Source: Plumapathes pennacea
Taxonomy: Eukaryota > Cnidaria > Anthozoa > Antipatharia > Myriopathidae
Direction of reading: 5' to 3'
Assembly: GCA_964036295.1 (NCBI GenBank)
Contig: OZ038465.1
Location: forward strand, 10,299,667-10,363,666
Length of the DNA stretch: 64,000 bases
How positions within the stretch are numbered: the first letter of the stretch is position 1; each line of letters opens with the position of its first letter. Positions 3,565-63,809 of the stretch are shown here, in pieces. Position numbers and translations under genes: made by a program. A model generated the notes under the pieces. It saw only the letters and a program-made list of their open reading frames with translations. It did no database searches and had not been told where the DNA came from.

Positions 3565-6500
3565 ATGTCCCTTAGTGACTCGCTCAAAGACCGTCAAGAC
3601 GTAGAACTGCCAGACTTTCCACCGATCAAGATGCTGAAGCCTAAAATCCTCTCTGACGTCCTTGGACAAGCGATCAGTGGCGGAGTTATCAGTTCGCTGT
3701 ATGTACTTTAGTGTGTGCTGTCATGTCCTAGTCTCGTGATCCATCTGACCTCAGTACACTGCATATTTCCATTACAGTCTAAGTACTCGTCGGAACGGAG
3801 ATCAGGCATTTTTTTCTGGGTTCTTTTCTCAGTTTTCAAATGTGTAAACAGTTCAATTTGTGTCAGTTGGGGGTGCGTGCCACTTTTGAACCTATACTGT
3901 CAGGTTTCCCAAAATTCCTGCCCTTTCTTAGCCGCATATTTTAGGAAGCGGCAACTAAAACTTTTTATAACATACAAAGCTTTGTTTATGTGTCAAAACT
4001 TACATAGCTGAGGGTAAGAACCTTCGCCTGTTGGGGACATTGTACAGTCATCTCCCTCAAATTAAGGCCGCATTCACACTTGGTGCCCGCACACTAGTGC
4101 CTGGGCACTGGCAAAAAAATAAATAAATAAATAAAAAACATGCTCACAATGCAAAAAGGTGCCCACTGTAGTTCCCCATGAACAAGGTCGAGATCTTGTA
4201 CTCACGGTGCCCATATTCTGGCATGGGTACCTGAAAAAATGGTTTGTCCACATTAGTGCTCAGTGAGAATCATGCTTGGGTACCAAGTGTGAACATACTA
4301 TAAGATGGTCATCCTTGAGCCAGGTGTCCGTCTTAAAGGGTGTCCGTTAAAAGGGAGTTGACAGATATGTTAAAAGGACATCTACATGTAGCCTAAACAT
4401 TCTACGTTGAAGGGGCCCTCTCAACCACAGGCCTTTGTGTGCTGAAATCCTTGGTTCTGCCATTTTTGGGGCCCCCGAAAGTCGAAAGATGAATAGCAAT
4501 CCACTTCCATCTGACTCGTTTGAGGAGAAGATTAGTTTCTTTTAATCTAAAAGTGCTACTAACCTAATATTCTTTTGATTGATTATGTTCTTTCGTGTTG
4601 GGAACAAAATTCAGCCTCAGATTTCCCAGATGTAAACAAAAACATTGAAAAGGCTGAGAGGGCCCCTTTAAGGTGATGACCTCACCACCCTATTAATACT
4701 AAATTGCTAACAATCTACACAGCAGTGAAATATACAATTAAAAATAAAATCTACTAATTACTAATCTACCCTACTAAGTTAATTTCAGTGAACATCTAAA
4801 GCCATTGATATCTGTCATAAAGTTTAAAGCATTTGGCCTCTTTTTGGGCCTTGTTTTGGCCTACTGGGCCTTTATTTTGTGTCTAAATATTTGACCTCTT
4901 TAAATATTTCACACTTCCCCATGACTAATACATGTATACCTGAGTACCCCCCCCCCCCCTCCCCCCCTGGGGTTCACTATCATGAGATAGGAACTGGCAT
5001 GAAATTCAGTTGAATCACCATGGGATGTGGGTAAAAGTGGAATGTACAGTAAGCCTGGATTCTGAACCTGTAAGTTTTAGTTTGTTAATGGTCGTGTGTG
5101 TAAAATACATGTAATGTGTAACATTTGATCTGTTTGAACAGGCTTTTGAATCAGGAGGGATCCCTTCTAGCATATGCTGGATCTGGAGACAAGGATGCCA
5201 AAGTAACAGCAGCCATTGCATCGAGTATCTGGTCAGCTTATGAGAAGAATGGTAAACTGGCATTTTATAATGAAGACCTGAAGGTCATCCTTATGGACTG
5301 TGAGGTGAGCAAACTGGTAAATACAAGGTACAGTGAACTGCTGACAATAGAATAAACTAGCTCAAATAAAACACAAATACAAATGTTGAATGATTCTGGA
5401 TATATTGTACTGTATTTTCATAGTGTAACATGATAAATACATGTAATAAAGAGAGGATATTACGCGGCGGCACGAAGATATGAATTTTATTTTCAGGTGG
5501 TAAAAACAATATTTTACGAACGAGCACTTCGCGAGTAAATATAATATTGTTTTTACCACGAGAAAATAAAATCCATATCTTCAAGCTGCCATGTAATTTT
5601 CTTTTTATTATATTAAACATGAGTGTTTTATGAGAACTTGCACAAACAACCAGGCAAAAGCAGGAAATGATGCCAACGATATCCTCACTAGTGAGGATAT
5701 GGAAAATACGCCACTCGGGTCTCGGATGTAGTTTTGTATGGATTTTACGCACGGTATATTTTCCAGTAAAACACTCGTGTCTATATAATATACCTGCATA
5801 TGTTGACTTGTACATCATGTGTGTTCATTGCATCCTGGATAGTGGCTTGACCTTGTGCCAAAAAACTGATTTATATAAACAATAAACTACTTTTGGAGAG
5901 GAAATATGAACTGATAATTGTCCGAGGATATTATCTGTTCCGAGAAGTGAACAGTTGCCCGAGACAAAGCTCGAGGGCAACTGTGAGCTTCAAGGAACAG
6001 ATAATGTCCAAGGACAATTATCCGTTCATATTTCCGAAGCCAAAAGCAGTTTATTGTCTTTATTATCCTTCAACTATTTCCTCTCGCAACGCAAATAATG
6101 GTGCAAGAACTGTGAAGCTCTTTAGTGCTTTCTGGAACTACTTTTTCAACAAATAAAATGATGTCCTCCTCGGTAGTCATCTCCTAATGGTTTTTTGTGT
6201 TTAATGTATAAAACTGTGTTTGGATATTGTCAATAAACAGCGATAGTTTGCCAGGCGGGGGTTATTTGCTGATAACGTCCGCTCATGTGTCATGTTTCCA
6301 CCAATCACGCGCGGGAGGAAATATTTGATGGGTCATAAAGCCTGATAATCTCTTGGTCATTTCTTCTTTGTTGTGAACTCTTTCACTGTAACTCTGCAGA
6401 TTATATAATGTACATGCAGAGACCACATTATACCATGACCATATGACAGGACTATATTGACTTTCATAGCTTTATGTGGGCCAACACAGTGATTCAAAAC

Positions 6501-6928: not shown

Positions 6929-7831
6929 CAGTTTATACCAAAAGCAGAAAATATTGAGGACTGAATCTGTGTGTTTGTCTTGCTCACAGTGTGTGGTCAC
7001 AACAACAATGTAAGGGAAGTGTAGATCAGTTATATTTTATCAGTCAGAATGCAAGGTTGAGGTCACTGTAATTTTCCCAGAAGTAATCAACCTGTTCAGT
7101 AATTAGGAGAATTTATTCATTGGATATTTTTTCAAATCTCACTACAATGTGCATGCATTTCTTCCTGAATAGTTGGGAGAAGGTATGAGATGCCTGGTTC
7201 TCCATCCTGTACTACATATCTAGTATCAATATAATATTTGAAAATAGAAACTCTTTCTGACAATCATTAACATGACACTTCGTTTAGCTACTCCACACAT
7301 GTTTTTGTGTAGATAAAGTTTAAATATCAAATTTAATTGTACTGTAAGAGCATTTATATTTCAATAAATCTTCCATTACAGTATTTGAGAATATTTGACT
7401 ACAGTGTATGTCATGTGTATGATGTCTACAGGTCAAGCACCTTACCTACAGGAACTTATATAAATAGTTCGTCTTCAAGTGTGACCAATTGGATAGACAA
7501 TAAAAAGCATTGGAACTGAACAATCACCCAACCACAAGAATGCCTGCATTCATTCATTCATTCATTCATTTTTATTTTGCACTATTTTTCTTTTTTTCTT
7601 TTACAGGTAAGTAGGAACATGTTACACAAAAAAAGAGAGAAAATAGACACTATGTTAGATATGTTTAGATGGATGTGCATAGTGGTCAAAACCCGTAGCA
7701 ACGAACTTTACATGTGGTATCAGTGCTTTTTCATCTCGCTTGGAGCTTCAGTAGTCACGTCCTCGACTTGGTTGAAAGACAACGGTCGAGAGGAATTCTT
7801 GTTTGCTTGTGCAGACGATTCAGTTCCAAGG

Positions 7832-7886
7832 GCTAATTTGCATTGAGTTTGGCTCATGTGAAGTACGGCGTTTGACCCGGGCCTTA
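7832..7886. repeat. Dispersed repeat, 'CATGTGAAG..ACGTTTGA' family, copy 2
   Basis: tttgcattgagtttggctca, catgtgaagtacggcg and tttgacccgggccttag follow one another, matching the reverse complement of 48628-48700. Orientation is relative only. Confidence 0.55.
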
Positions 7887-8363
7887 GATATGTCTAGGGT
7901 TTGTTTTTTTGGCCTATAAAGGCTCACCAGGAAAGAATTTGCCAAAAAATGTTGAATTTGAAGGGGTCTCAAAGCCCTCTAAAGTCACTAATATCTGCAT
8001 TGTTAGCGACAATATTATGACCAGGGACTTGAATACACTTGGGTGAAAGTACCACACTGTCGGCAGGTCCAGCAAAGAAAATAGTTGCTCATGAACTTGT
8101 ACTGAGTGTGCATGAGGATGGACCCAGGGATCAAATGTGCATTTAGCAACAGTGTCTCCCAAGCTCGGCCAAGACTGGGTCGAGCTCGGCCAAGACTGAG
8201 TACCAGTAAATATAAAGAGTAGAAGCTAGTGCCGAAAACTGGTAATGCCTGGGGCTTTTTAGCTTTTTAGTGGGAAAGTCTGTGTTTACATGAATAAAAC
8301 ATCATGATGGCTTCAAGAGATGTTTGCCGGAAGAGCAACCCAGATAAATAGGCAAATATGTTC

Positions 8364-8369
<6 letters not shown>

Positions 8370-8399
<30 letters not shown>
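8370..8399. repeat. Poly-A tract (about 30 A)
   Basis: A pure A run immediately precedes the inverted-repeat element at 8404. It could be a retroposon tail, but no retroposed sequence upstream of it was recognised. Confidence 0.85.
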
Positions 8400-8400
<1 letters not shown>

Positions 8401-8403
8401 AAC

Positions 8404-8703
8404 ACAGATTTACCTGGTTTATCCTAATATCATTATGCACAAATTTTAACTTTAAACAAGTTGAGCAGTTTTCAGCCAAACAAGGTCCATGAATTGGGTA
8501 CATTTTCTCCAATCAATAGTAAAATATCATGGTACTCTTCATCTTTGGAGAATAGGAATTGCCATCAGCCCTTACATAGAAACAAGCAGGAATGTGTCAG
8601 ACCAAAAGAGTATAGTATGGATAATCTCCAGCTATTATCAATGCCATGTACAACTTTTCAGTTAATTACCTGTGATGTACATTGATAGACCAGGTAAATC
8701 TGT
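8404..8703. mobile_element. MITE-like element with ACAGATTTACCTGGT termini
   Basis: The left terminus acagatttacctggt (8404-8418) and right terminus accaggtaaatctgt (8689-8703) are perfect 15-bp inverted repeats 300 bp apart, enclosing non-coding AT-rich DNA. Confidence 0.65.
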
Positions 8704-8864
8704 AATATCAAGTTCATTTGACTGAGCATAAAGTGTACATTATAAAACATAGTTACTGCGAATGCTGTATTACCAGGAGTAACGGGGCTTATTTAAAGAA
8801 ATAAGATGACGACGAGGTATTCTTGGTAAACAAAACTGATCACACTTTAGTGTACTAGTTGAAC

Positions 8865-9060
8865 AATGTAATACAAGGAAATCGATTTACACAAGAATTA
8901 TATAGTAGAACAAACTATGACCATTTTTCAATAATAACAAAGTGAACAGGTATCCAGAATAATATACCAAAAGAACTCAAAAACATATTCTCCCGAAATC
9001 AATTTAAGGGAATTTAAAACAACACTTCCTGACACTGAAAATGTAACAGAAGAAAAAGTA
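8865..9060 (+). pseudogene. Degraded LINE relic (end of a reverse-transcriptase ORF, L2/CR1-like)
   Basis: The + strand frame around 8950-9020 reads IQNNIPKELKN followed by SRNQFK, which resembles the carboxy-terminal W-N-x-[IL]-P-x-x-[IL]-[RK]-N ... F-K motif of L2/CR1-type non-LTR reverse transcriptases. The tryptophan codon is lost and the frame is broken by stops and an indel after FK. It is a short, old, 5'-truncated remnant next to the satellite array. Confidence 0.45.
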
Positions 9061-9256
9061 AGAAATTAAATTTTTGATATAGTAAATTATACTATATCTG
9101 ATGTTATTTTATTTTATGCAATATGCCTAATTAGTTACAGTAATGAAATGCACCATATGAAAAAAGAAAGGGCACTTATATAAAACCCGAAATGGTTTAG
9201 ATTTTTAGTTCCCCTCCCTGAAATGTAATCTAAATCTTATTCTTACAATATTGATT

Positions 9257-12200
9257 GAAACCTCTTGAAATTTTCAGGAAACCTTCCTTGGACTATAATA
9301 AGACGTTTTGCAATACATTTTCTTTATCTATCTTCATCCGCTGCTAAGATATATCAGCTTAAATTTGGCTCCTTTGCTCGAAAGGTGTGATGATTTAATT
9401 ACTGCACGATTTCCTCTAGTTTACTATAATTTCTCACGACGCGTAGGCTAAAAGTCTACTAAAACTGTGCAAAAACCGTCGACAAAGTCCCAGAAAAGAT
9501 ACCTGAAAGTTTCATGCGATTCTGAGATGGTCGAAAAATAAACGGATTTTGACAAATTACAATAAGGCTATAGCACAGGTTTTTTCTCAAAAATTAAAAA
9601 CTCTTCAAACTTTCAGGAAACCTTCCCTAGACTATAAATGGACTTTTTGCGATACATTGGCTTTATCAATCAAAAGGTGTGATGAATTAATTAGTGCATG
9701 ATTTGCTGTAATTTGCTCTAATTTCTCACGACGCGCGCCCTAAAAGTTTACAAAAACTATGCAAACGTCGTCGGCATAGTCCCAGGAACGTTTCCTGAAA
9801 GTTTCATGCGATTCTGAAATGGTCGAAAAATCTTGGAATTTTGACAAAATACTAAGGCTATAGCACAGGGTTTTTTGCCGATTTTGGCCAAAAATTGAAA
9901 ACTCTTGAAACTACCAGGAAACCTTCCTTAGACTATAAGAAGACTTTTTGCAATACATTTTCCTTATCTATCTTCATCCGTTGCCGAGATATAACAGCTT
10001 AACTCGAAAGGTGTGATGAATTAATTAGTGCATGATTTGCTGTAATTTGCTCTAATTTCTCACGATGCGCGCCCTAAAAGTTTACAAAAACTATGCAAAC
10101 GTCGTCGGCATAGTCCCAGGAACGTTTCCTGGAAGTTTCATGCGATTCTGAGATGGTCGAAAAATCTTGCAATTTTGACAAAATACTAAGGCTATAGCAC
10201 AGGGTTTTTTGCCGATTTTGGCCAAAAATTGAAAACTCTTGAAACTTACAGGAAACCTTCTTTGGACTATCAGAAGACTTTTTGCAATACATTTTCCTTA
10301 TCTATCTTTATCCGTTGCCGAGATATAACAGCTTAACTCCAAAGGTGTCATGAATCTATTAGTGCATGATTTGCTGTAATTTGCTCTAATTTCTCACGAC
10401 GCGCGCGCTAAAAGTTTACAAAACCTATGCAAACGTCGTCGGCATAGTCCCAGGAACGTTTCCTGGAAGTTTCATGCGATTCTGAGATGGTCGAAAAATC
10501 TTGCAATTTTGACAAAATACTAAGGCTATAGCACAGGGTTTTTTGCCGATTTTGGCCAAAAATTGAAAACTCTTGAAACTTACAGGAAACCTTCTTTGGA
10601 CTATCAGAAGACTTTTTGCAATACATTTTCCTTATCTATCTTTATCCGTTGCCGAGATATAACAGCTTAACTCCAAAGGTGTCATGAATCTATTAGTGCA
10701 TGATTTGCTGTAATTTGCTCTAATTTCTCACGACGCGCGCGCTAAAAGTTTACAAAACCTATGCAAACGTCGTCGGCATAGTCCCAGGAACGTTTCCTGA
10801 AAGTTTCATGCGATTCTGAGATGGTCGAAAAATCTTGGAATTTTGACAAAATACTAAGGCTATAGCACAGGGCTTTTTGCCGATTTTGGCCAAAAATTGA
10901 AAACTCTTGAAACTTTCAGGAAACCTTCCTTAGACTATAAGAAGACTTTTTGCAATACATTTTCCTTATCTATCTTTATCCGTTGCCGAGATATAACAGC
11001 TTAACTCCAAAGGTGTGATGAATTAATTAGTGCATGATTTGCTGTAATTTGCTCTAATTTCTCACGACGCGCGACCTAAAAGTTTACAAAAACTATGCAA
11101 TCGTCGTCGGTATAATCCCAGGAACGTTTCCTGAAAGTTTCATGCGATTCTGAGATGGTCGAAAAATCTTGCAATTTTGACAAAATACTAAGGCTATAGC
11201 ACAGGGTTTTTTGCCGATTTTGGCCAAAAATTGAAAACTCTTGAAACTTTCAGGAAACCTTCCTTAGTCTATAAGAAGACTTTTTGCAATACATTTTCCT
11301 TATCTATCTTTATCCGTTGCCGAGATATAACAGCTTAACTCGAAAGGTGTCATGAATTAATTATTGCATGATTTGCTGTAATTTGCTCTAATTTCTCACG
11401 ACGCGCGCGCTAAAAGTTTACAAAAACTATGCAAACGTCGTCGGCATAGTCCCAGGAACGTTTCCTGAAAGTTTCATGCGATTCTGAGATGGTCGAAAAA
11501 TCTTGCAATTTTGACAAAATACTAAGGCTATAGCACAGGGTTTATTGCCGATTTTGGCCAAAAATTGAAAACTCTTGAAACTTTCAGGAAACCTTCCTTA
11601 GACTATAAGAAGACTTTTTGCAATGCATTTTCCTTATCTATCTTTTTCCGTTGCCGAGATATAACAGCTTAACTCGAAAGGTGTCATGAATTAATTAGTA
11701 CATGATTTGCTGTAATTTGCTCTAATTTCTCACTACGCGCGCTCTAAAAGTTTACAAAAACTATGCAAACGTCGTCGGCATAGTCCCAGGAACGTTTCCT
11801 GAAAGTTTCATGCGATTCTGAGATGGTCAAAAAATCTTGGAATTTTCACAAAATATTAAGGTTATAGCACAGGGTTTTTTGCCGATTTTGGCCAAAAATT
11901 GAAAACTCTTGAAACTTTCAGGAAACCTTCCTTAGACTATAAGAAGACTTTTTGCAATACATTTTCCTTATCTATCTTTATCCGTTGCCGAGATATAACA
12001 ACTTAACTCGAAAGGTGTCATGAATTAATTAGTGCATGATTTGCTGTAATTTGCTCTAATTTCTCACGACGCGCGCGCTAAAAGTTTACAAAAACTATGC
12101 AAACGTCGTCGGCATAGTCCCAGGAACGTTTCCTGAAAGTTTCATGCGATTCTGAGATGGTCGAAAAATCTTGGAATTTTGACAAAATACTAAGGCTATA

Positions 12201-15200
12201 GCACAGGGTTTTTTGCCGATTTTGGCCAAAAATTGAAAACTCTTGAAACTTTCAGGAAACCTTCCTTAGACTATAAGAAGACTTTTTGCAATACATTTTC
12301 CTTATCTATCTTTATCCGTTGCCGAGATATAACAGCTTAACTCCAAAGGTGTGATGAATTAATTATTGTATGATTTGCTGTAATTTGCTCTAATTTCTCA
12401 CGACGCGCGCGCTAAAAGTTTACAAAAACTATGCAAACATCGTCGGCATAGTCCCAGGAGCGTTTCCTGAAAGTTTCATGCGATTCTGAGATGGTCGAAA
12501 AATCTTGGAATTTTGACAAAATACTAAGGTTATAGCACAGGGTTTTTTGCCGATTTTGGCCAAAAATTGAAAACTCTTGAAACTTTCAGGAAACCTTCCT
12601 TAGACTATAAGAAGACTTTTTGCAATACATTTTCCTTATCTATCTTTATCCGTTGCCGAGATATAACAGCTTAACTCCAAAGGTGTCATGAATCTATTAG
12701 TGCATGATTTGCTGTAATTTGCTCTAATTTCTCACGACGCGCGCGCTAAAAGTTTACAAAACCTATGCAAACGTCGTCGGCATAGTCCCAGGAACGTTTC
12801 CTGAAAGTTTCATGCGATTCTGAGATGGTCGAAAAATCTTGCAATTTTGACAAAATACTAAGGCTATAGCACAGGGCTTTTTGCCGATTTTGGCCAAAAA
12901 TTGAAAACTCTTGAAACTTTCAGGAAACCTTCCTTAGACTATAAGAAGACTTTTTGCAATACATTTTCCTTATCTATCTTTATCCGTTGCCGAGATATAA
13001 CAGCTTAACTCCAAAGGTGTCATGAATTAATTAGTGCATGATTTGCTGTAATTTGCTCTAATTTCTCACGACGCGCGACCTAAAAGTTTACAAAAACTAT
13101 GCAATCGTCGTCGGTATAATCCCAGGAACGTTTCCTGAAAGTTTCATGCGATTCTGAGATGGTCGAAAAATCTTGCAATTTTGACAAAATACTAAGGCTA
13201 TAGCACAGGGTTTTTTGCCGATTTTGGCCAAAAATTGAAAACTCTTGAAACTTTCAGGAAACCTTCCTTAGTCTATAAGAAGACTTTTTGCAATACATTT
13301 TCCTTATCTATCTTTATCCGTTGCCGAGATATAACAGCTTAACTCGAAAGGTGTCATGAATTAATTATTGCATGATTTGCTGTAATTTGCTCTAATTTCT
13401 CACGACGCGCGCGCTAAAAGTTTACAAAAACTATGCAAACGTCGTCGGCATAGTCCCAGGAACGTTTCCTGAAAGTTTCATGCGATTCTGAGATGGTCGA
13501 AAAATCTTGGAATTTTGACAAAATACTAAGGCTATAGCACAAGCTTTTTTGCCGATTTTGGCCAAAAATTGAAAACTCTTGAAACTTTCAGGAAACCTTC
13601 CTTAGACTATAAGAAGACTTTTTGCAATACATTTTCCTTATCTATCTTTATCCGTTGCCGAGATATAACAGCTTAACTCCAAAGGTGTCATGAATTAATT
13701 AGTGCATGATTTGCTGTAATTTGCTCTAATTTCTCACGACGCGCGCGCTAAAAGTTTACAAAAACTATCCAAACGTCATCGGCATAGTCCCAGGAACGTT
13801 TCCTGAAAGTTTCATGGGATTCTGAGATGGTCGAAAAATCTTGCAATTTTGACAAAATACTAAGGTTATAGCACAGGGTTTTTTTGCCGATTTTGGCCAA
13901 AAATTGAAAACTCTTGAAACTTTCAGGAAACCTTCCTTAGACTATAAGAAGACTTTTTGCAATACATTTTCCTTATCTATCTTTATCCGTTGCCGAGATA
14001 TAACAGCTTAACTCGAAAGGTGTCATGAATTAATTATTGCATGATTTGCTGTAATTTGCTCTAATTTCTCACGACGCGCGCGCTAAAAGTTTACAAAAAC
14101 TATGCAAACGTCGTCGGCATAGTCCCAGGAACGTTTCCTGAAAGTTTCATGCGATTCTGAGATGGTCGAAAAATCTTGGAATTTTGACAAAATACTAAGG
14201 CTATAGCACAAGCTTTTTTGCCGATTTTGGCCAAAAATTGAAAACTCTTGAAACTTTCAGGAAACCTTCCTTAGACTATAAGAAGACTTTTTGCAATACA
14301 TTTTCCTTATCTATCTTTATCCGTTGCCGAGATATAACAGCTTAACTCCAAAGGTGTCATGAATTAATTAGTGCATGATTTGCTGTAATTTGCTCTAATT
14401 TCTCACGACGCGCGCGCTAAAAGTTTACAAAAACTATCCAAACGTCATCGGCATAGTCCCAGGAACGTTTCCTGAAAGTTTCATGGGATTCTGAGATGGT
14501 CGAAAAATCTTGCAATTTTGACAAAATACTAAGGTTATAGCACAGGGTTTTTTTGCCGATTTTGGCCAAAAATTGAAAACTCTTGAAACTTTCAGGAAAC
14601 CTTCCTTAGACTATAAGAAGACTTTTTGCAATACATTTTCCTTATCTATCTTTATCCGTTGCCGAGATATAACAGCTTAACTCCAAAGGTGTCATGAATT
14701 ATTTAGTGCATGATTTGCTATAATTTGCTCTAATTTCTCACGACGCGCGCCCTAAAAGTTTACAAAAACTATGCAAACGTCCTCGGCATAGTCCCGGGAA
14801 CGTTTCCTGAAAGTTTCATGCGATTCTGAGATGGTCGAAAAATCTTGGAATTTTGACAAAATACTAAGGCTATAGCACAAGGTTTTTTGCCGATTTTGGC
14901 CAAAAATTGAAAACTCTTGAAACTTTCAGGAAACCTTCCTTAGACTATAAGAAGACTTTTTGCAATACATTTTCCTTATCTATCTTTATCCGTTGCCGAG
15001 ATATAACAGCTTAACTCCAAAGGTGTCATGAATTAATTAGTGCATGATTTGCTATAATTTGCTCTAATTTCTCACGACGCGCGCCCTAAAAGTTTACAAA
15101 AACTATGCAAACGTCCTCGGCATAGTCCCAGGAACGTTTCCTGAAAGTTTCATGCGATTCTGAGATGGTCGAAAAATCTTGGAATTTTGACAAAATACTA

Positions 15201-18200
15201 AGGCTATAGCACAAGGTTTTTTGCCGATTTTGGCCAAAAATTGAAAACTCTTGAAACTTTCAGGAAACCTTCCTTAGACTATAAGAAGACTTTTTGCAAT
15301 ACATTTTCCTTATCTATCTTTATCCGTTGCCGAGATATAACAGCTTAACTCCAAAGGTGTCATGAATTAATTAGTGCATGATTTGCTGTAATTTGCTCTA
15401 ATTTCTCACGACGCGCGCGCTAAAAGTTTACAAAAACTATCCAAACGTCATCGGCATAGTCCCAGGAACGTTTCCTGAAAGTTTCATGGGATTCTGAGAT
15501 GGTCGAAAAATCTTGCAATTTTGACAAATACTAAGGTTATAGCACAGGGTTTTTTTGCCGATTTTGGCCAAAAATTGAAAACTCTTGAAACTTTCAGGAA
15601 ACCTTCCTTAGACTATAAGAAGACTTTTTGCAATACATTTTCCTTATCTATCTTTATCCGTTGCCGAGATATAACAGCTTAACTCCAAAGGTGTCATGAA
15701 TTAATTAGTGCATGATTTGCTATAATTTGCTCTAATTTCTCACGACGCGCGCCCTAAAAGTTTACAAAAACTATGCAAACGTCCTCGGCATAGTCCCGGG
15801 AACGTTTCCTGAAAGTTTCATGCGATTCTGAGATGGTCGAAAAATCTTGGAATTTTGACAAAATACTAAGGCTATAGCACAAGGTTTTTTGCCGATTTTG
15901 GCCAAAAATTGAAAACTCTTGAAACTTTCAGGAAACCTTCCTTAGACTATAAGAAGACTTTTTGCAATACATTTTCCTTATCTATCTTTATCCGTTGCCG
16001 AGATATAACAGCTTAACTCCAAAGGTGTGATGAATTAATTAGTGCATGATTTGCTGTAATTTGCTCTAATTTCTCACGACGCGCGCGCTAAAAGTTTACA
16101 AAAACTATGCAAACGTCGTCGGCATAGTCCCAGGAACGTTTCCTGAAAGTTTCATGCGATTCTGAGATGGTCGAAAAATCTTGCAATTTTGACAAAATAC
16201 TAAGGCTATAGCACAGGGTTTTTTGCCGATTTTGGCCAAAAATTGAAAACTCTTGAAACTTTCAGGAAACCTTCCTTAGACTATAAGAAGACTTTTTGCA
16301 ATACATTTTCCTTATCTATCTTTATCCGTTGCCGAGATATAACAACTTAACTCGAAAGGTGTCATGAATTAATTAGTGCATGATTTGCTGTAATTTGCTC
16401 TAATTTCTCACGACGCGCGCGCTAAAAGTTTACAAAAACTATGCAAACGTCGTCGGCATAGTCCCAGGAACGTTTCCTGAAAGTTTCATGCGATTCTGAG
16501 ATGGTCGAAAAATCTTGCAATTTTGACAAAATACTAAGGCTATAGCACAGGGTTTTTTGCCGATTTTGGCCAAAAATTGAAAACTCTTGAAACTTTCAGG
16601 AAACCTTCCTTAGACTATAAGAAGACTTTTTGCAATACATTTTCCTTATCTATCTTTATCCGTTGCCGAGATATATCAGCTTAACTCCAAAGGTGTGATG
16701 AATTAATTAGTGCATGATTTGCTGTAATTTGCTCTAATTTCTCACGACGCGCGCGCTAAAAGTTTACAAAAACTATGCAAACGTCGTCGGCATAGTCCCA
16801 GGAACGTTTCCTGAAAGTTTCATGCGATTCTGAGATGGTCGAAAAATCTTGCAATTTTGACAAAATACTAAGGTTATAGCACAGGGTTTTTTGCCGATTT
16901 TGGCCAAAAATTGAAAACTCTTGAAACTTTCAGGAAACCTTCCTTAGACTATAAGAAGACTTTTTGCAATACATTTTCCTTATCTATCTTTATCCGTTGC
17001 CGAGATATAACAACTTAACTCGAAAGGTGTCATGAATTAATTAGTGCATGATTTGCTGTAATTTGCTCTAATTTCTCACGACGCGCGCGCTAAAAGTTTA
17101 CAAAAACTATGCAAACATCGTCGGCATAGTCCCAGGAGCGTTTCCTGATAGTTTCATGCGATTCTGAGATGGTCGAAAAATCTTGCAATTTTGACAAAAT
17201 ACTAAGGTTATAGCACAGGGTTTTTTGCCGATTTTGGCCAAAAATTGAAAACTCTTGAAACTTTCAGGAAACCTTCCTTAGACTATAAGAAGACTTTTTG
17301 CAATACATTTTCCTTATCTATCTTTATCCGTTGCCGAAATATAACAGCTTAACTCCAAAGGTGTCATGAATTAATTAGTGCATGATTTGCTGTAATTTGC
17401 TCTAATTTCTCACGACGCGCGCGCTAAAAGTTTACAAAAACTATGCAAACGTCGTCGGCATAGTCCCAGGAACGTTTCCTGAAAGTTTCATGCGATTCTG
17501 AGATGGTCGAAAAATCTTGCAATTTTGACAAAATACTAAGGTTATAGCACAGGGTTTTTTGCCGATTTTGGCCAAAAATTGAAAACTCTTGAAACTTTCA
17601 GGAAACCTTCCTTAGACTATAAGAAGACTTTTTGCAATACATTTTCCTTATCTATCTTTATCCGTTGCCGAAATATAACAGCTTAACTCCAAAGGTGTCA
17701 TGAATTAATTAGTGCATGATTTGCTGTAATTTGCTCTAATTTCTCACGACGCGCGCGCTAAAAGTTTACAAAAACTATGCAAACGTCGTCGGCATAGTCC
17801 CAGGAACGTTTCCTGAAAGTTTCATGGGATTCTGAGATGGTCGAAAAATCTTGGAATTTTGACAAAATACTAAGGCACAGGGTTTTTTGCCGATTTTGGC
17901 CAAAAATTGAAAACTCTTGAAACTTTCAGGAAACCTTCCTTAGACTATAAGAAGACTTTTTGCAATACATTTTCCTTATCTATCTTTATCCGTTGCCGAG
18001 ATATAACAGCTTAAATTGAAAGGTGTCATGAATTAATTGGTGCATGATTTGCTGTAATTTGCTCTAATTTCTCACGACGCGCGCGCTAAAAGTTTACAAA
18101 AACTATGCAAACGTCGTCGGCATAGTCCCAGGAACGTTTCCTGAAAGTTTCATGCGATTCTGAGATGGTCGAAAAATCTTGCAATTTTGACAAAATACTA

Positions 18201-18409
18201 AGGCTATAGCACAGGGTTTTTTTGCCGATTTTGGCCAAAAATTGAAAACTCTTGAAACTTTCAGGAAACCTTCCTTAGACTATAAGAAGACTTTTTGCAA
18301 TACATTTTCCTTATCTATCTTTATCCGTTGCCGAGATATAGCAGCTTAACTCGAAAGGTGTCATGAATTAATTAGTGCATGATTTGCTGTAATTTGCTCT
18401 AATTTCTCC
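9257..18409 (+). repeat. Satellite array: about 27 head-to-tail copies of a 334-bp monomer
   Basis: The anchor CAGGAAACCTT recurs at 9275, 9614, 9915, 10249 and then every 334 bp (occasionally 335, once 328) to 18262, giving 28 anchors. The first spacings (339 and 301 bp) and first two or three units are clearly diverged; inner units are nearly identical, the usual edge pattern of a satellite. Every monomer carries cacgacgcgcg, a 16-bp segment gtttcctgaaagtttc with its exact reverse complement about 100 bp further on, and the palindrome TTTTGGCCAAAA. Variant bases show duplicated blocks of two, three and six monomers. Two identical 72-codon frames on the minus strand (10074-10292 and 10408-10626) simply reflect the repetition. 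The array lies between the 3' ends of LAMTOR2 and the dynein gene and stops abruptly at 18409. True copy number may be mis-assembled. Confidence 0.97.
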
Positions 18410-18907
18410 TTACTTTACATTACACACTCGATAGCAGTGTCTAAAGCTTCTCCGAAGCAGTAGACAAAAAAAAAAACAAGGGAAATATTTCATTGTTACA
18501 TTTACAACCATTACTTCCACACAACACAGTTTATTAGCCAAGAGTTTCAAATATATACTTTATAAGTACACCTGAATGATGCTGCTAAAAGGAACAGAGG
18601 AAGGAGGCGTAATACGAAGGAAAGAATAAATCTAGACGAACACTGGGATAGAGAAAGAAACACTTAAAGAATGCCGATTGAAAAAAAAAAATCCACGTTC
18701 CGATCGTGAGCAATGAAAAATGCTAAATTGGCCAGAGTGGGTGGGACGAAAGAAAGAAAACTATTGATACACAATATTAGAAAAGTCGCCATTTTATGGC
18801 TCGCAATTTGGAAGAAAAATAGAAAAAAAAGCACTCTTTGCACGCTTGAAACACACTCATTAAAATACTCTGCAATAAGAGTATGAAAAATGGCACTGTC
18901 AATAATA
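18410..18907 (-). other. Dynein heavy chain 3' UTR and array-flanking sequence
   Basis: Read on the minus strand, this follows the dynein stop codon. The + strand TTTATT at 18530-18535 is AATAAA on the transcript strand, about 375 nt after the stop, and is a plausible polyadenylation signal. The satellite begins only about 120 bp beyond it. Confidence 0.6.
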
Positions 18908-44800: not shown

Positions 44801-47800
44801 ATACTCGGCCAAAGCTTTCTCACACAACGCAAGTCTGTACAAAACAAACACAAGGCGGGCAGGTTGATGAAACAATGCTTGTTGATAAGAATACAATATG
44901 CGCCCCTGTGAGAACTAGTTTTGGTCTGCGTATAATAAACGTATAATATTTCGACGTACGTTTGATGTGGGCAGGCTAAACGCCGTAAATGTGCTAGCTG
45001 CCGTTTCGAGCGCTAGCCCTTCATCAGAGCAAAGAGGAGATTATCGAAATAGGGTACACAAAGTGTGAGGGCGCACTGAGAGTGATCATCGGCATCCACG
45101 AAGGAGACGACGCCAAAATAAAGTTAAGATAAAAAAGCAAAAGAGGAGCCATACTATCATCTCTTTTGTGAAATGTAGTTTGAAGATTTAGATGAATTTC
45201 TAAAAAGCATGGACCACATGGATTGCGTGTGAGGAGGTTCGCACAGTATCAGCAGTTGGTTGTGAGTGTAACAGCGACTTGTCCTCACCTTTCCTGCAGA
45301 TTTTCGAGAGTATCAAACAGTCCACTTCTGTTGCAGCAATCTACGACGTTGGGAATCTCCGCTGCTTCTTTCATCAGTTCCTGAGAAATTAATAATCTCC
45401 TTTAGTACGTGTGCCCAAGTGGTCCCTTCATAAGGGAGCGTCCATGGTTGCACAAAAGTCAGCGTGTGACATGGCCTTAAAGCTCACCTTAAAGTCCACA
45501 TCGATGCCATCAAATCTCTTGGAGTCTTCCGGCAGCTGATTTCGGATGTCCTCTGAGCCGATGAAGATGCTCTCCAAATGAGACCAGGTCCTCTGCACTT
45601 CAAACCAGATGGAGATCACTGAATCTGCTTGAGACAGCTTCTTCTGCCACAAGGTCACCTCCTCCAAGAAATGTCCGATGTACTTGGACGTGATCAGGTT
45701 TTGAAGTTGAACCTGCATTCAAGAAGGCATTCAATGTTAGAGGTCGTTGATTATTTGACTATGTGCATTTGTACAGTGTGAGTAATTGTAAGCGCGTACG
45801 TTTAGTGTGGGTGAGTGAGTGGTTGAGTTGAGAGTGAACAAGTGTGAGTGCGTGAGTGTACAGTACGTAGACATAGTGAGTAAATGAATGAATGAATGAA
45901 TGAATGAGTCAGTCAGTCAATAAGCGAGTCTATGAACCAATGAGTGAGCAGTTCAGTGAACTAGTGTCTGGGTCAATTAGTATGAGAGAGAATGACTGAG
46001 TCAGTGAACGAGTGAGTGGGTCCATGAACCAGTGAGTGACTGATTCAGTGAACTAGTGTGTGAGTCAGCTAATCTGAGTCAATGAGTGCAAGAGAGAAAG
46101 ACCGAGTTAGTGAACGAGTAGGAGAACAAGTGAGTGTGTCCATGAACCAGAGAGGCGACTGATTCAGTGAACTAGTATGTCAGTCAGCTAACCTGAGTCA
46201 ATGAGTGCGAGAGAGAAAGATCGAGTTAGTGAACGAATAGCTGAACAAGTGAGTGTGTCCATGAACGAGAGAGGCGACTGATTCAGTGAACTAGTATGTC
46301 AGTCAGCTAACCTGAGTCAATGAGTGCGAGAGAGAAAGACTGAGTTAGTGAACGAGTACGTAAATGAGTGGGTGGAGTAATAAAAATGAATATTAGGAAA
46401 CTACAACTTGGCCTGTAGAAAACAACTGCACTTGTGATTACCTGGTTGTCTTCAAGAGTTTCAATCAGCTCCTCACTTGACTTCAACAGAGGAATGCCAG
46501 TCCGCATGTGCGTCTCGTACTCGAATTCCATCTGTGACCAAGTCTGGTCAAGTTCCTTCAGTACTTTCTCCATTCCCAGTTCCTTGGTGGCCTTGTCCAC
46601 GATGTTACGCACCTCGTCTTCAAAGTTGTGAAGATTCAGCGCCAAAAGATCCGACAGGTTGGTGTCCTCATTCATAATAAATTTGACCTGAAGTGGCAAA
46701 ATGGTCGCATGGAACTCAATTCGATTACACAGGATTCACACGCCTTCCATGTGACCCCAACAGTTTGGTCTGCCCCTGTATCTTGTCTATATAAACCATA
46801 CTTGTTGATACAAAATTTGTGGCAGTTACACAAGTACTTTTAACATCGACACAACAAATACATGTGATGATCATGATCATAGTCACACGACGGTATTGAT
46901 TATGACGATGACGACGACAACGATGATGATGATCATTGTGGTGACAACAATGAAGAAGACGAAGACGATGACGACGACTATGGGGTATGCGTGCACCGTG
47001 AGAGTTCAAAAGCAAGATGGTGTATATCAAATCAAACTACAAGCAATTATAGGAGCAATGAAAATGGCAAATAAACCCGGAATAGTGAATGTTTGATCGT
47101 ATTACATGTAGGAACAGCAATCATCGGGAGCTACAATACATTCTTTTTGGACGCTACAGCCCTTGATCGTAAATACGGAATACAATATTTCTTCTAGGTT
47201 AACCAGTTCACGTAGTCTGGATGGTTAGATTGAGTAACAAAACCTGGTACTCACCTTGGTGGCCTGCATGAGCTGCTGCCAATGACGCTCTCGGATTGCC
47301 GGGTTCTGCAGCTCACCCACAGCCCTTAGTGACGTCACCATGTTCTTGACGGTGGAATCAAGCCCGCTGAACGCGTCCCAAGCCCTCATCTCTTTGTCCA
47401 GCATTCGAATCTCCTTCACGAATCTCTTGCATTCCATCTCCATGTTCTCGACGTCGATGTCGGCCCACAGCGTGGTCTTCCACTCATCTATGCTGCTCAG
47501 CACTGTCTCCACCATGTCCCAGAGCTGCTTGAGTAAGATGACCTCGCGCCGGCAAGCGCGCAGCTGTTTGTAGTCAGGGAAGTTCACTTCAAACAGACCT
47601 GCAGACTCCGATAAGCAGTTCATCTCTTCTTCCATGGCACAGATCTGGCGATTACACTGCACAAAAGAGAGTTGGACAATGTGTCAATAGCTGGCCTCTT
47701 GAATGCTAGTCCAGTCCAAGAGAACTACAATCCTGGACACACCTGGTTTGTTTAAAGCTCGACAAGGCTAATCCTGGAATGTGTCTAAATTTTGTCATTT

Positions 47801-62482: not shown

Positions 62483-62759
62483 CCCAAGCCACAGTCAGGT
62501 AAAAAATCCATGGCACCGATAGAAATGTTATGAGATGGACTCATACTCACAACCCGCGCCTCCACCTATAAACCACCTATATACAGTAAGATATACTTTT
62601 TCCATTTCGTACATTTTCTTTTCGAAAGGTTAAGATAAGGTGGGTAAGGGTGAACGCGCGCGCGTCTCGGGAACATCATAATGACGCCGGCGTGACGAAT
62701 TACGACGTCATAGACTAAACTAAACTAACAGCATAGTTGCAAGAAAAAAAGCGATACAT
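62483..62759. other. Spacer between ASB-like and RBR genes
   Basis: It holds the ASB 3' UTR and the upstream region of the RBR frame. I saw no canonical AATAAA. A CG-rich patch (gaacgcgcgcgcgtctcggg) lies near 62653-62672. The frame of the RBR protein is open back to 62724 without an ATG. Confidence 0.5.
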
Positions 62760-63809
62760 ATGAAAAAAACATCCATGAATCCTGACGACCCAAAAAACGA
62801 GCCAAGTCCCGCGGCAAAGGTAGAAATCTTGGGCTCGTCTGAAGTTCAACGAAAAAAAGCGATAAATATGAAGAAAACATCCAAGATTCCTGACGACCCA
62901 AAAAACAAGCCAAGTCCCGCGGCAAAGGAAGAAATCTCAGACGCGTCTGAAGTTCCACGAAAAAAAACGATACGTATGAAGAAAACATCTAAGATTCCTG
63001 GCGACCCAAAAAACAAGCCAAGTCACGCGAAAAAGGAAGAAATCGAGAAAATGTGCGACGTTTGCTTTAAAACAGTTCGTTCTTCGAAGTTTCCGTCGAC
63101 TAGACTCACCTGCAAGCACACTTGCTGCCGAGAATGCCTGGAAAGCTACTTCAAGGAGCGCATAGCTTCCGGCTTCATCAGCATCGGGTGCCCCTGGAAC
63201 GGCTGTGAGCAGACTTACTCCCCGGCTGATATCACGAGTATCCTAAGGACTCCCAGATGGAAAGAGAAGTACAGTCACCTATCGCTCACAAAAGCGCTGT
63301 TGAAAAATCCAGAAACCCGCTTCTGTCCAGGAGTGGATTGCCAGTATGCAGCCTTCGTACCTGCGGGCATTCAGTGCCCAGTGTTGACGTGCGAAAACCG
63401 CAACTGCGGCGTCAAATTCTGCTGCAAGTGCTCAGAAGTGTGGTGCGACCAACATCAGTGTAAACAGAAGGAACGCTTGCCCGAGACGAAGCGATGTCCT
63501 GGTTGCAAAGTCCCCCTGCACAAGATTGTTGACGGCGCATGTAACCAGATAACGTGTCGTATCTGCGAGAAGAGTTTCTGTTGGCTTTGTCTCCAGGAAC
63601 TGAATTCATGGTATAACCATGATCACTTCAGAATGAAGTGTCCTCTGTACGGCAAAAAGCGCTTCGGCAAAGGAAGACTGATGTTCAACAAGGCTGCGTA
63701 TGTTGGTGAAGTGGTGGTTGGCATTCCTTTAGCGGTTGGTGTAGCTGCAGGTATAGTCACAGATGGAGAAATCATTGTAGACTGTCTAAACGTCGTCTTT
63801 TTAGATTAG
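62760..63809 (+). CDS. RBR-type E3 ubiquitin ligase with N-terminal 36-residue repeats
   Basis: A single open frame of 349 residues ends at TAG 63807-63809. Residues 1-97 are two complete 36-residue repeats and a partial third, each starting MKKTS and containing DPKN(K/E)PS. RING1 spans about 99-149 (C99-x2-C102, C118-x-H120, C123, C126, C144, C149). The IBR zinc ligands fall between about 189 and 234. The Rcat domain begins CPGC at 246 and has DGAC with the likely catalytic Cys near 261, then C-x2-C and FCWLC. A hydrophobic stretch near 312-330 may be a membrane segment, as in some RBR ligases. RBR ligases pass ubiquitin from an E2 through the Rcat cysteine. The frame continues upstream to 62724 with RKKAIH, a partial repeat, so an additional 5' exon is possible. 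AATAAA at 63859-63864 is a likely polyadenylation signal. Confidence 0.9.
   Translation: MKKTSMNPDDPKNEPSPAAKVEILGSSEVQRKKAINMKKTSKIPDDPKNKPSPAAKEEISDASEVPRKKTIRMKKTSKIPGDPKNKPSHAKKEEIEKMCDVCFKTVRSSKFPSTRLTCKHTCCRECLESYFKERIASGFISIGCPWNGCEQTYSPADITSILRTPRWKEKYSHLSLTKALLKNPETRFCPGVDCQYAAFVPAGIQCPVLTCENRNCGVKFCCKCSEVWCDQHQCKQKERLPETKRCPGCKVPLHKIVDGACNQITCRICEKSFCWLCLQELNSWYNHDHFRMKCPLYGKKRFGKGRLMFNKAAYVGEVVVGIPLAVGVAAGIVTDGEIIVDCLNVVFLD

Follow-up and report, generated by a model that had tools for sequence, protein, structure and literature searches.

The 64,000-nucleotide stretch of the Plumapathes pennacea genome analysed here (the window; contig C4, positions 10299667-10363666) carries an array of 334-bp tandem repeats, and the locus raises the question whether this array is an isolated satellite, as an earlier note on the same DNA had taken it to be, or one site of a wider family that reached this place by a recognizable route. 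The genome assembly that includes the window comprises 290 Mb in 24 contigs, and the copy number given for the array is derived from this one assembly. The satellite array is real, with all units arranged head to tail, and has the following parts:

9254-18408, + strand: whole satellite array, delimited by Tandem Repeats Finder, Blast and unit alignment
9254-9675, + strand: left margin of the array, made of diverged older units (338-bp type), with the 14-bp box and without the 10-bp box
9676-18408, + strand: core of the 334-bp type, 26 full units plus 52 bp, forming one clade (support 0.899)

The earlier note's description of a 334-bp tandem array is confirmed, with 26 full units plus partial and diverged ones. 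Two of the checks for which it had called were carried out: Tandem Repeats Finder returned a single array (9673-18408; period 334, 26.2 copies, 97% matches), and the monomer tree placed 26 of the 26 window units in one clade. In a Blast search with one monomer, the array reached from 9254 to 18408, i.e. beyond the start at 9673, and its first parts were 88% (9254-9362) and 81% (9384-9671) identical to this single query monomer; the stretch 9384-9675 has a mean identity of 82.6% to the remaining window units. The 26 full in-phase units occupy 9676-18356 and are followed by 52 bp up to 18408. Their mean pairwise identity is 97.1% (0-19 differences per pair). In the comparison made with the tree, identity is 97.4% within the window array, compared with 94.2-95.3% to the six other 334-type loci; as is characteristic of satellite DNA, the array is long, head to tail and homogenised within itself.

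Within the core, a patchwork of duplicated blocks had been described on the basis of shared marker strings. All of these strings are present, within 1-2 bp of the positions originally given: ATGCAATCGTCGTCGGTATA at 11095 and 13099, TTAGTCTATAAG at 11264 and 13268, GCACAAGC at 13537 and 14206 (with two further copies outside the array), CTATCCAAACGTCATC at 13765 and 14434 and, in a third copy that had been overlooked, at 15437, and CGTCCTCGGCATAGTCCCGGG at 14778 and 15780. The longest stretches with at most 2 mismatches at each lag are:

10606-11505, + strand: block of 900 bp with a copy 2004 bp on (12610-13509), at most 2 mismatches
13211-14032, + strand: block of 822 bp duplicated in tandem, with its copy 669 bp on (13880-14701) and at most 2 mismatches
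14524-15053, + strand: block of 530 bp with a copy 1002 bp on (15526-16055), at most 2 mismatches

The proposed two-monomer duplication holds, with 822 bp at lag 669. For the proposed six-monomer duplication the recurrence at lag 2004 is real, but the shared block covers about 2.7 monomers, and 'six monomers' is therefore a distance and not a block size; the proposed three-monomer duplication recurs at lag 1002, with a near-identical stretch of 530 bp. The near-identical stretches span 1.6-2.7 units; of the three cases, just the one at lag 2 amounts to a plain tandem duplication. Among whole units, 0 or 1 difference separates units 4/10 and 5/11 (lag 6), 12/14 and 13/15 (lag 2), and 15/18 and 16/19 (lag 3); these three consecutive-pair matches (at most 1 difference each) compare with a mean of 0.16 after shuffling of the unit order, and three were reached in 9 of 20000 shuffles. 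Unit difference is correlated with lag (Mantel r 0.20, p 0.012). The mean difference between units is 8.5-10.1 at every lag from 1 to 12, hence there is no single higher-order period, and one regular higher-order unit of the alpha-satellite type was ruled out, since none of these lags stands out. The unit-pair and lag comparisons support the earlier view of overlapping duplications that follow no single higher-order period. What had been taken for higher-order blocks are stretches of about 0.5-0.9 kb that were duplicated locally, at lags of 2, 3 and 6 monomers, and unequal exchange or conversion fits as the source of the patchwork.

The satellite is not confined to the window. At least 49 places, distributed over C1-C8 and C10-C12, carry members of the family (matches listed plus loci read directly); the genome thus holds a dispersed family, which is also the central repeat of a mobile element (see below), and the view of an isolated satellite does not stand. 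Two boxes define the monomer types: the 348 type has both, the 338 type lacks the 10-bp box, and the 334 type lacks the 14-bp box; in an array on C1 the unit spacing is 324. The monomer tree was built from 131 monomers of 18 loci representing 16 arrays (L030 and L031 are opposite ends of a single array, as are L032 and L033). The units of L034, L036 and L038-L043 each form one clade, as for the window; L011, L026, L030-L033, L035 and L037 show no clean clades, and L029 is nearly one clade (24 of 25 units) with a support of 0. L030 and L033 likewise have 338-type units at the margins of arrays of the 334 type, and at L047 the first unit past the element end is without the 10-bp box. We read this as a younger 334-bp type that is expanding within older 338-type arrays. 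Loci were partly picked via earlier hits, and the proportions given here are therefore not genome-wide rates. A text search of papers with four monomer strings gave no literature match. Arrays of about 39 kb (C7:14.931-14.971 Mb) and about 29 kb (C5:23.419-23.448 Mb) are suggested by the matches listed.

A common flank around all arrays was looked for and rejected; among the flanks compared there is none, save an element end in L034 (C1) and L037 (C6), where the 376 bp directly ahead of the satellite are in common. This 376-bp end is a dispersed repeat (at least 40 near-full-length matches; 1193 first-look candidates), as is a second end past the array in L034 (at least 40 near-full-length matches; 431 first-look candidates), and the element with these ends is termed family A. 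Two such ends at most 40 kb apart occur in 17 pairs among the 40 x 40 matches listed, in the same order and orientation in 17/17; 15 of these pairs span 1.0-3.9 kb, and another pair of ends lies 33 kb apart. Twelve family-A copies were examined, four of which (L034, L037, L047, L051) enter the satellite at one joint. The other eight 3' ends (L044-L046, L048-L050, L055, L056) have another middle instead, which is a point against a carrier role of the element. L034 and L037 had been picked for their arrays and L055/L056 for a nearby second end; among the copies taken irrespective of the satellite (listed after L034 and L037), two of eight carry it. The pattern of the joint between satellite and family A has eight matches in the genome (0-3 mismatches; control 0), four of which were inspected. 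The satellite-free element is about 1.45 kb long and non-coding (two copies). At L053 the array joins the middle of the element almost at the site of the first joint, replacing about five bases, and in L034 and L052 further parts of the middle are missing. Family-A elements hence exist without the satellite, and some have an array inserted at one point via the same joint; both matching ends flank the array at L034 and on C5. Satellite similarity was no better than that of shuffles in the left flank of L037 and in the single flanks of L055 and L056.

Oriented as in the published HINE scheme, family A begins, behind 4-5 T, with AAGGTCGCCCAC, a short loop and a complementary repeat; its other end consists of GGGCGACCTTT, the palindrome CAGCG-N4-CGCTG and CTTTGAT|T. 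A 5' subTIR and, close to it, a complementary inverted repeat were found in 6/6 of the 5' ends, with AAGGTCGCCC exact in five of them (the subTIR strings of the HINE families are AAGGTCGCCC and GTGTCTACTGC). The 3' subTIR GGGCGACC is present in 10 of the 12 3' ends, as is the palindrome; the insertion site reads GAT|T at all 12 of these ends, and 4-5 T stand ahead of all six 5' ends. The host monomer that the C5 element interrupts halts at position 168 and resumes at 167, so that there is no target-site duplication, and the element at L034 splits an older, inverted satellite monomer, which halts at about 165 and resumes at 167. With a 5' subTIR and inverted repeat, a 3' subTIR and palindrome, and a T-rich target without duplication, the family-A element has, judged by its sequence, the published layout of a HINE (non-autonomous Helentron). 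Thomas et al. 2014 (PMC4067079) and Vojvoda Zeljko et al. 2020 (PMC7492417) describe this layout, together with T-rich targets, the lack of a target-site duplication and central repeats as an optional part.

On C5 (L047/L053), family-A ends in matching orientation are located at 2823945 and 2854549 and delimit an element of 30.6 kb overall, with satellite at both inner joints. Satellite was found at 5/5 interior probes of 351 bp, in one orientation throughout, and the distance from joint to joint is about 29.05 kb, which corresponds to about 87 units of 334 bp, with the interior sampled at five points. Both this element and the one on C1 (L034) are inserted at the same site, about position 165-168, of an older, inverted monomer of the satellite that they carry. 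It is conceivable, albeit unlikely, that a HINE holds, and perhaps moves with, a core of about 29 kb (about 87 units), with the satellite serving as both cargo and landing site. If true, small rolling-circle elements could, with cargo and target identical, build up large satellite arrays in a process that reinforces itself.

The window array itself lies between the 5' end of a second element, family B, and a cut-off dispersed repeat, with the 338 type at its edge and the 334 type inside. Its surroundings are:

7289-9143, + strand: segment whose one other long copy lies on C3 (L011 6708-8598), between inverted satellite blocks
8138-9256, + strand: dispersed LINE-like repeat, cut off at the array start, with shared ATTGAAA
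18409-18476, - strand: HINE-like 5' end of family B, abutting the right edge of the array
18410-18427, - strand: microsatellite of this end
18437-18450, - strand: inverted repeat of this end
18454-18465, - strand: subTIR of this end
18466-18476, - strand: A/T-run of this end

Read on the - strand, the right edge consists of a T-run, GTCTACTGCTTC, a short loop, a complementary repeat, a GTAAT-type microsatellite and satellite, i.e. the T-run, subTIR, inverted repeat and microsatellite of a 5' HINE end are all found at 18409-18476, and the array starts directly at the family-B microsatellite. This edge is a further argument against an isolated satellite. In oyster HINEs the arrays come after a similar microsatellite, according to PMC7492417. 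The family-B hairpin at the window folds better than 200 of 200 shuffles, the first part of this end matches at least 40 other places, and the terminal pattern occurs 212 times genome-wide (control 0).

At L027 a matching 3' subTIR (GCAGTAGACAC), a palindrome and a T-run follow 1.0 kb further on, and family B is therefore regarded as HINE-like, its 3' end being fully visible once. At L025 the 3' subTIR is present without that palindrome, and at L026 and L028 no 3' subTIR was found in the 5-6 kb stretch. Overall, 2/5 other 5'-end copies have the 3' subTIR and one (L027) the palindrome within 5-6 kb; these incomplete 3' ends are a point against the derivation of the window array from a HINE. Opposite the 5' end in the window, no 3' subTIR-like match (at most 3 substitutions) occurs within 11 kb, for which reason the array is not filed as an intact HINE. 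A family-B 5' end is also located about 1.2 kb ahead of a 338-type array at L026, in the same relative orientation as in the window. The joint between array and family B was not found elsewhere (among the 40 matches listed, one spans the joint), and family B is therefore possibly a chance neighbour of the window array. No family-A sequence beyond chance-level matches is present in the window, which likewise counts against a HINE reading.

At L025 (3557-4975), two family-B 5' ends are arranged face to face at a distance of 1.34 kb; outside one of them, the flank resembles the satellite from 30 bp on (a better match than in 300 shuffles), and in the other flank satellite similarity is no better than in shuffles. 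A plain inverted-repeat transposon end, considered for the right flank of the window array because of these facing copies, was replaced by the HINE reading. On the left, the LINE-like repeat was rejected as a carrier of the satellite, because 9 of the 12 other copies shown continue past the joint without satellite. The 1.85-kb segment 7289-9143 and its copy in L011 are 93-95% alike, and since the latter lies between satellite blocks, satellite and neighbour segment probably moved together at least once.

We consider it probable that the satellite is at least also a central repeat of HINEs and that the window array is a one-sided derivative. Rolling-circle transposition would have spread the older arrays, inside which the 334-bp variant would then have expanded; the window array may have lost its other element end via a repair joint with short shared sequence, and unequal exchange or conversion of 0.5-0.9-kb blocks would since have made the patchwork. 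A host function would not be required for this explanation.

The alternative that fares best, an old independent satellite which spread as extrachromosomal circles, with a whole-unit circle once entering a family-A HINE that from then on transported some of the copies, and with the window array as a direct circle insertion, appears unlikely. At L047/L053 the array begins near monomer position 180 and stops at 177, so that it is in phase, as expected of a circle that was opened at a single site; most array edges examined lie at unrelated monomer positions, and the segment 7289-9143 adjoins satellite both in the window and on C3. Expansion within the element, however, also yields an in-phase array. 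Decidedly unlikely is an ordinary satellite that lies beside HINE debris by chance, with joints that are secondary and uninformative on spread: HINE ends are common (the 1193 and 431 first-look candidates of family A and the 212 termini of family B), few array edges were inspected, and bounding by HINE ends is demonstrated for a minority of arrays, yet one joint pattern gave eight matches against a control of 0, and an array is enclosed by a matching pair of element ends both at L034 and on C5.

Each monomer examined contains an imperfect inverted repeat of about 170-190 bp, for example:

11431-11627, no strand assigned: dyad, imperfect inverted repeat of the monomer

A separate function of the monomer, in which selection would maintain it as a hairpin RNA or a protein-binding dyad, is very improbable: the dyad occurs in the subfamilies examined, a window monomer folds better than shuffles (z -3.55 as DNA, z -3.79 as RNA) and the core arm columns average 96.5% versus 92.1% outside the arms, but the arms as a whole average 94.0%, and RNA structure kept by selection was rejected on an alignment without covariation (two-sided change in 2/58 pairs; covariation term +0.51). 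A hammerhead retrozyme was ruled out, with no hammerhead ribozyme match in the window at gathering scores and, in 10900-12100, 19 matches with E up to 10, none of them a hammerhead. At L029 (C7:17812500-17822400) the satellite switches strand at about 5120-5150, where the arms (101-131 and 231-261) overlap, and the dyad may therefore promote inversions; a second strand switch, near 9168, lies away from the arms.

Other features of the window comprise:

18908-52952, - strand: dynein heavy chain exons (Dynein_C, MT stalk and DHC_N1 domains), with the array end about 430 bp past the last codon of the gene
45928-46358: further tandem repeat, period 119 (and 44/20), detected by TRF
62735-63044: tandem repeat of 108 bp, located where an open frame with zinc-finger domains of the IBR/RING type begins

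HINEs that carry satellites have been published before, as have one-sided arrays, and the present family is a further example. As described in PMC7492417, Cg_HINE of the oyster Crassostrea gigas has satellite-like central repeats and genome-wide dispersal, with monomers of about 138-181 bp and a longest array of 29.3 units. The elements described here are like Cg_HINE in the subTIR, inverted repeat, 3' subTIR, palindrome, T-rich target and lack of target-site duplication, and in satellite-like arrays as central repeats that are dispersed genome-wide, the two being likened by layout and not by sequence; they are unlike it in monomers of 324-348 bp and in one element (C5) whose array apparently comprises about 87 units, or three times as many as the longest oyster array. 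They share with the Helentrons DINE-1/HINE-Mo, for which PMC4067079 gives known autonomous Rep/helicase partners, the subTIRs, an inverted repeat by the 5' subTIR, a 3' stem-loop, T-runs at the ends, a TT target and optional tandem repeats. For the Cg170/HindIII satellite, element-borne, one-sided ('intermediate') and free arrays are listed in a review (PMC12628747). The present family is similar in having arrays in an element, one-sided (window), and without element ends at the edges examined, and differs in sequence and host. The Tetris foldback transposon of Drosophila virilis is said to have supplied a satellite; the tie between transposon and satellite is comparable, with inverted satellite blocks here in L011 and L029, whereas no long terminal inverted repeats were found on the family-A elements examined.

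A single chromosome-scale assembly thus shows stages of satellite-birth models, i.e. the empty element, the short array and the very long array, as well as the one-sided array (window) and arrays without an element end at their edges. A newer variant (334 bp) is furthermore visible inside remnants of an older type (338 bp), and with these staged forms and layered types the order of events is therefore testable in sister species. A satellite without known relatives is, in this way, traceable via its other genomic sites.
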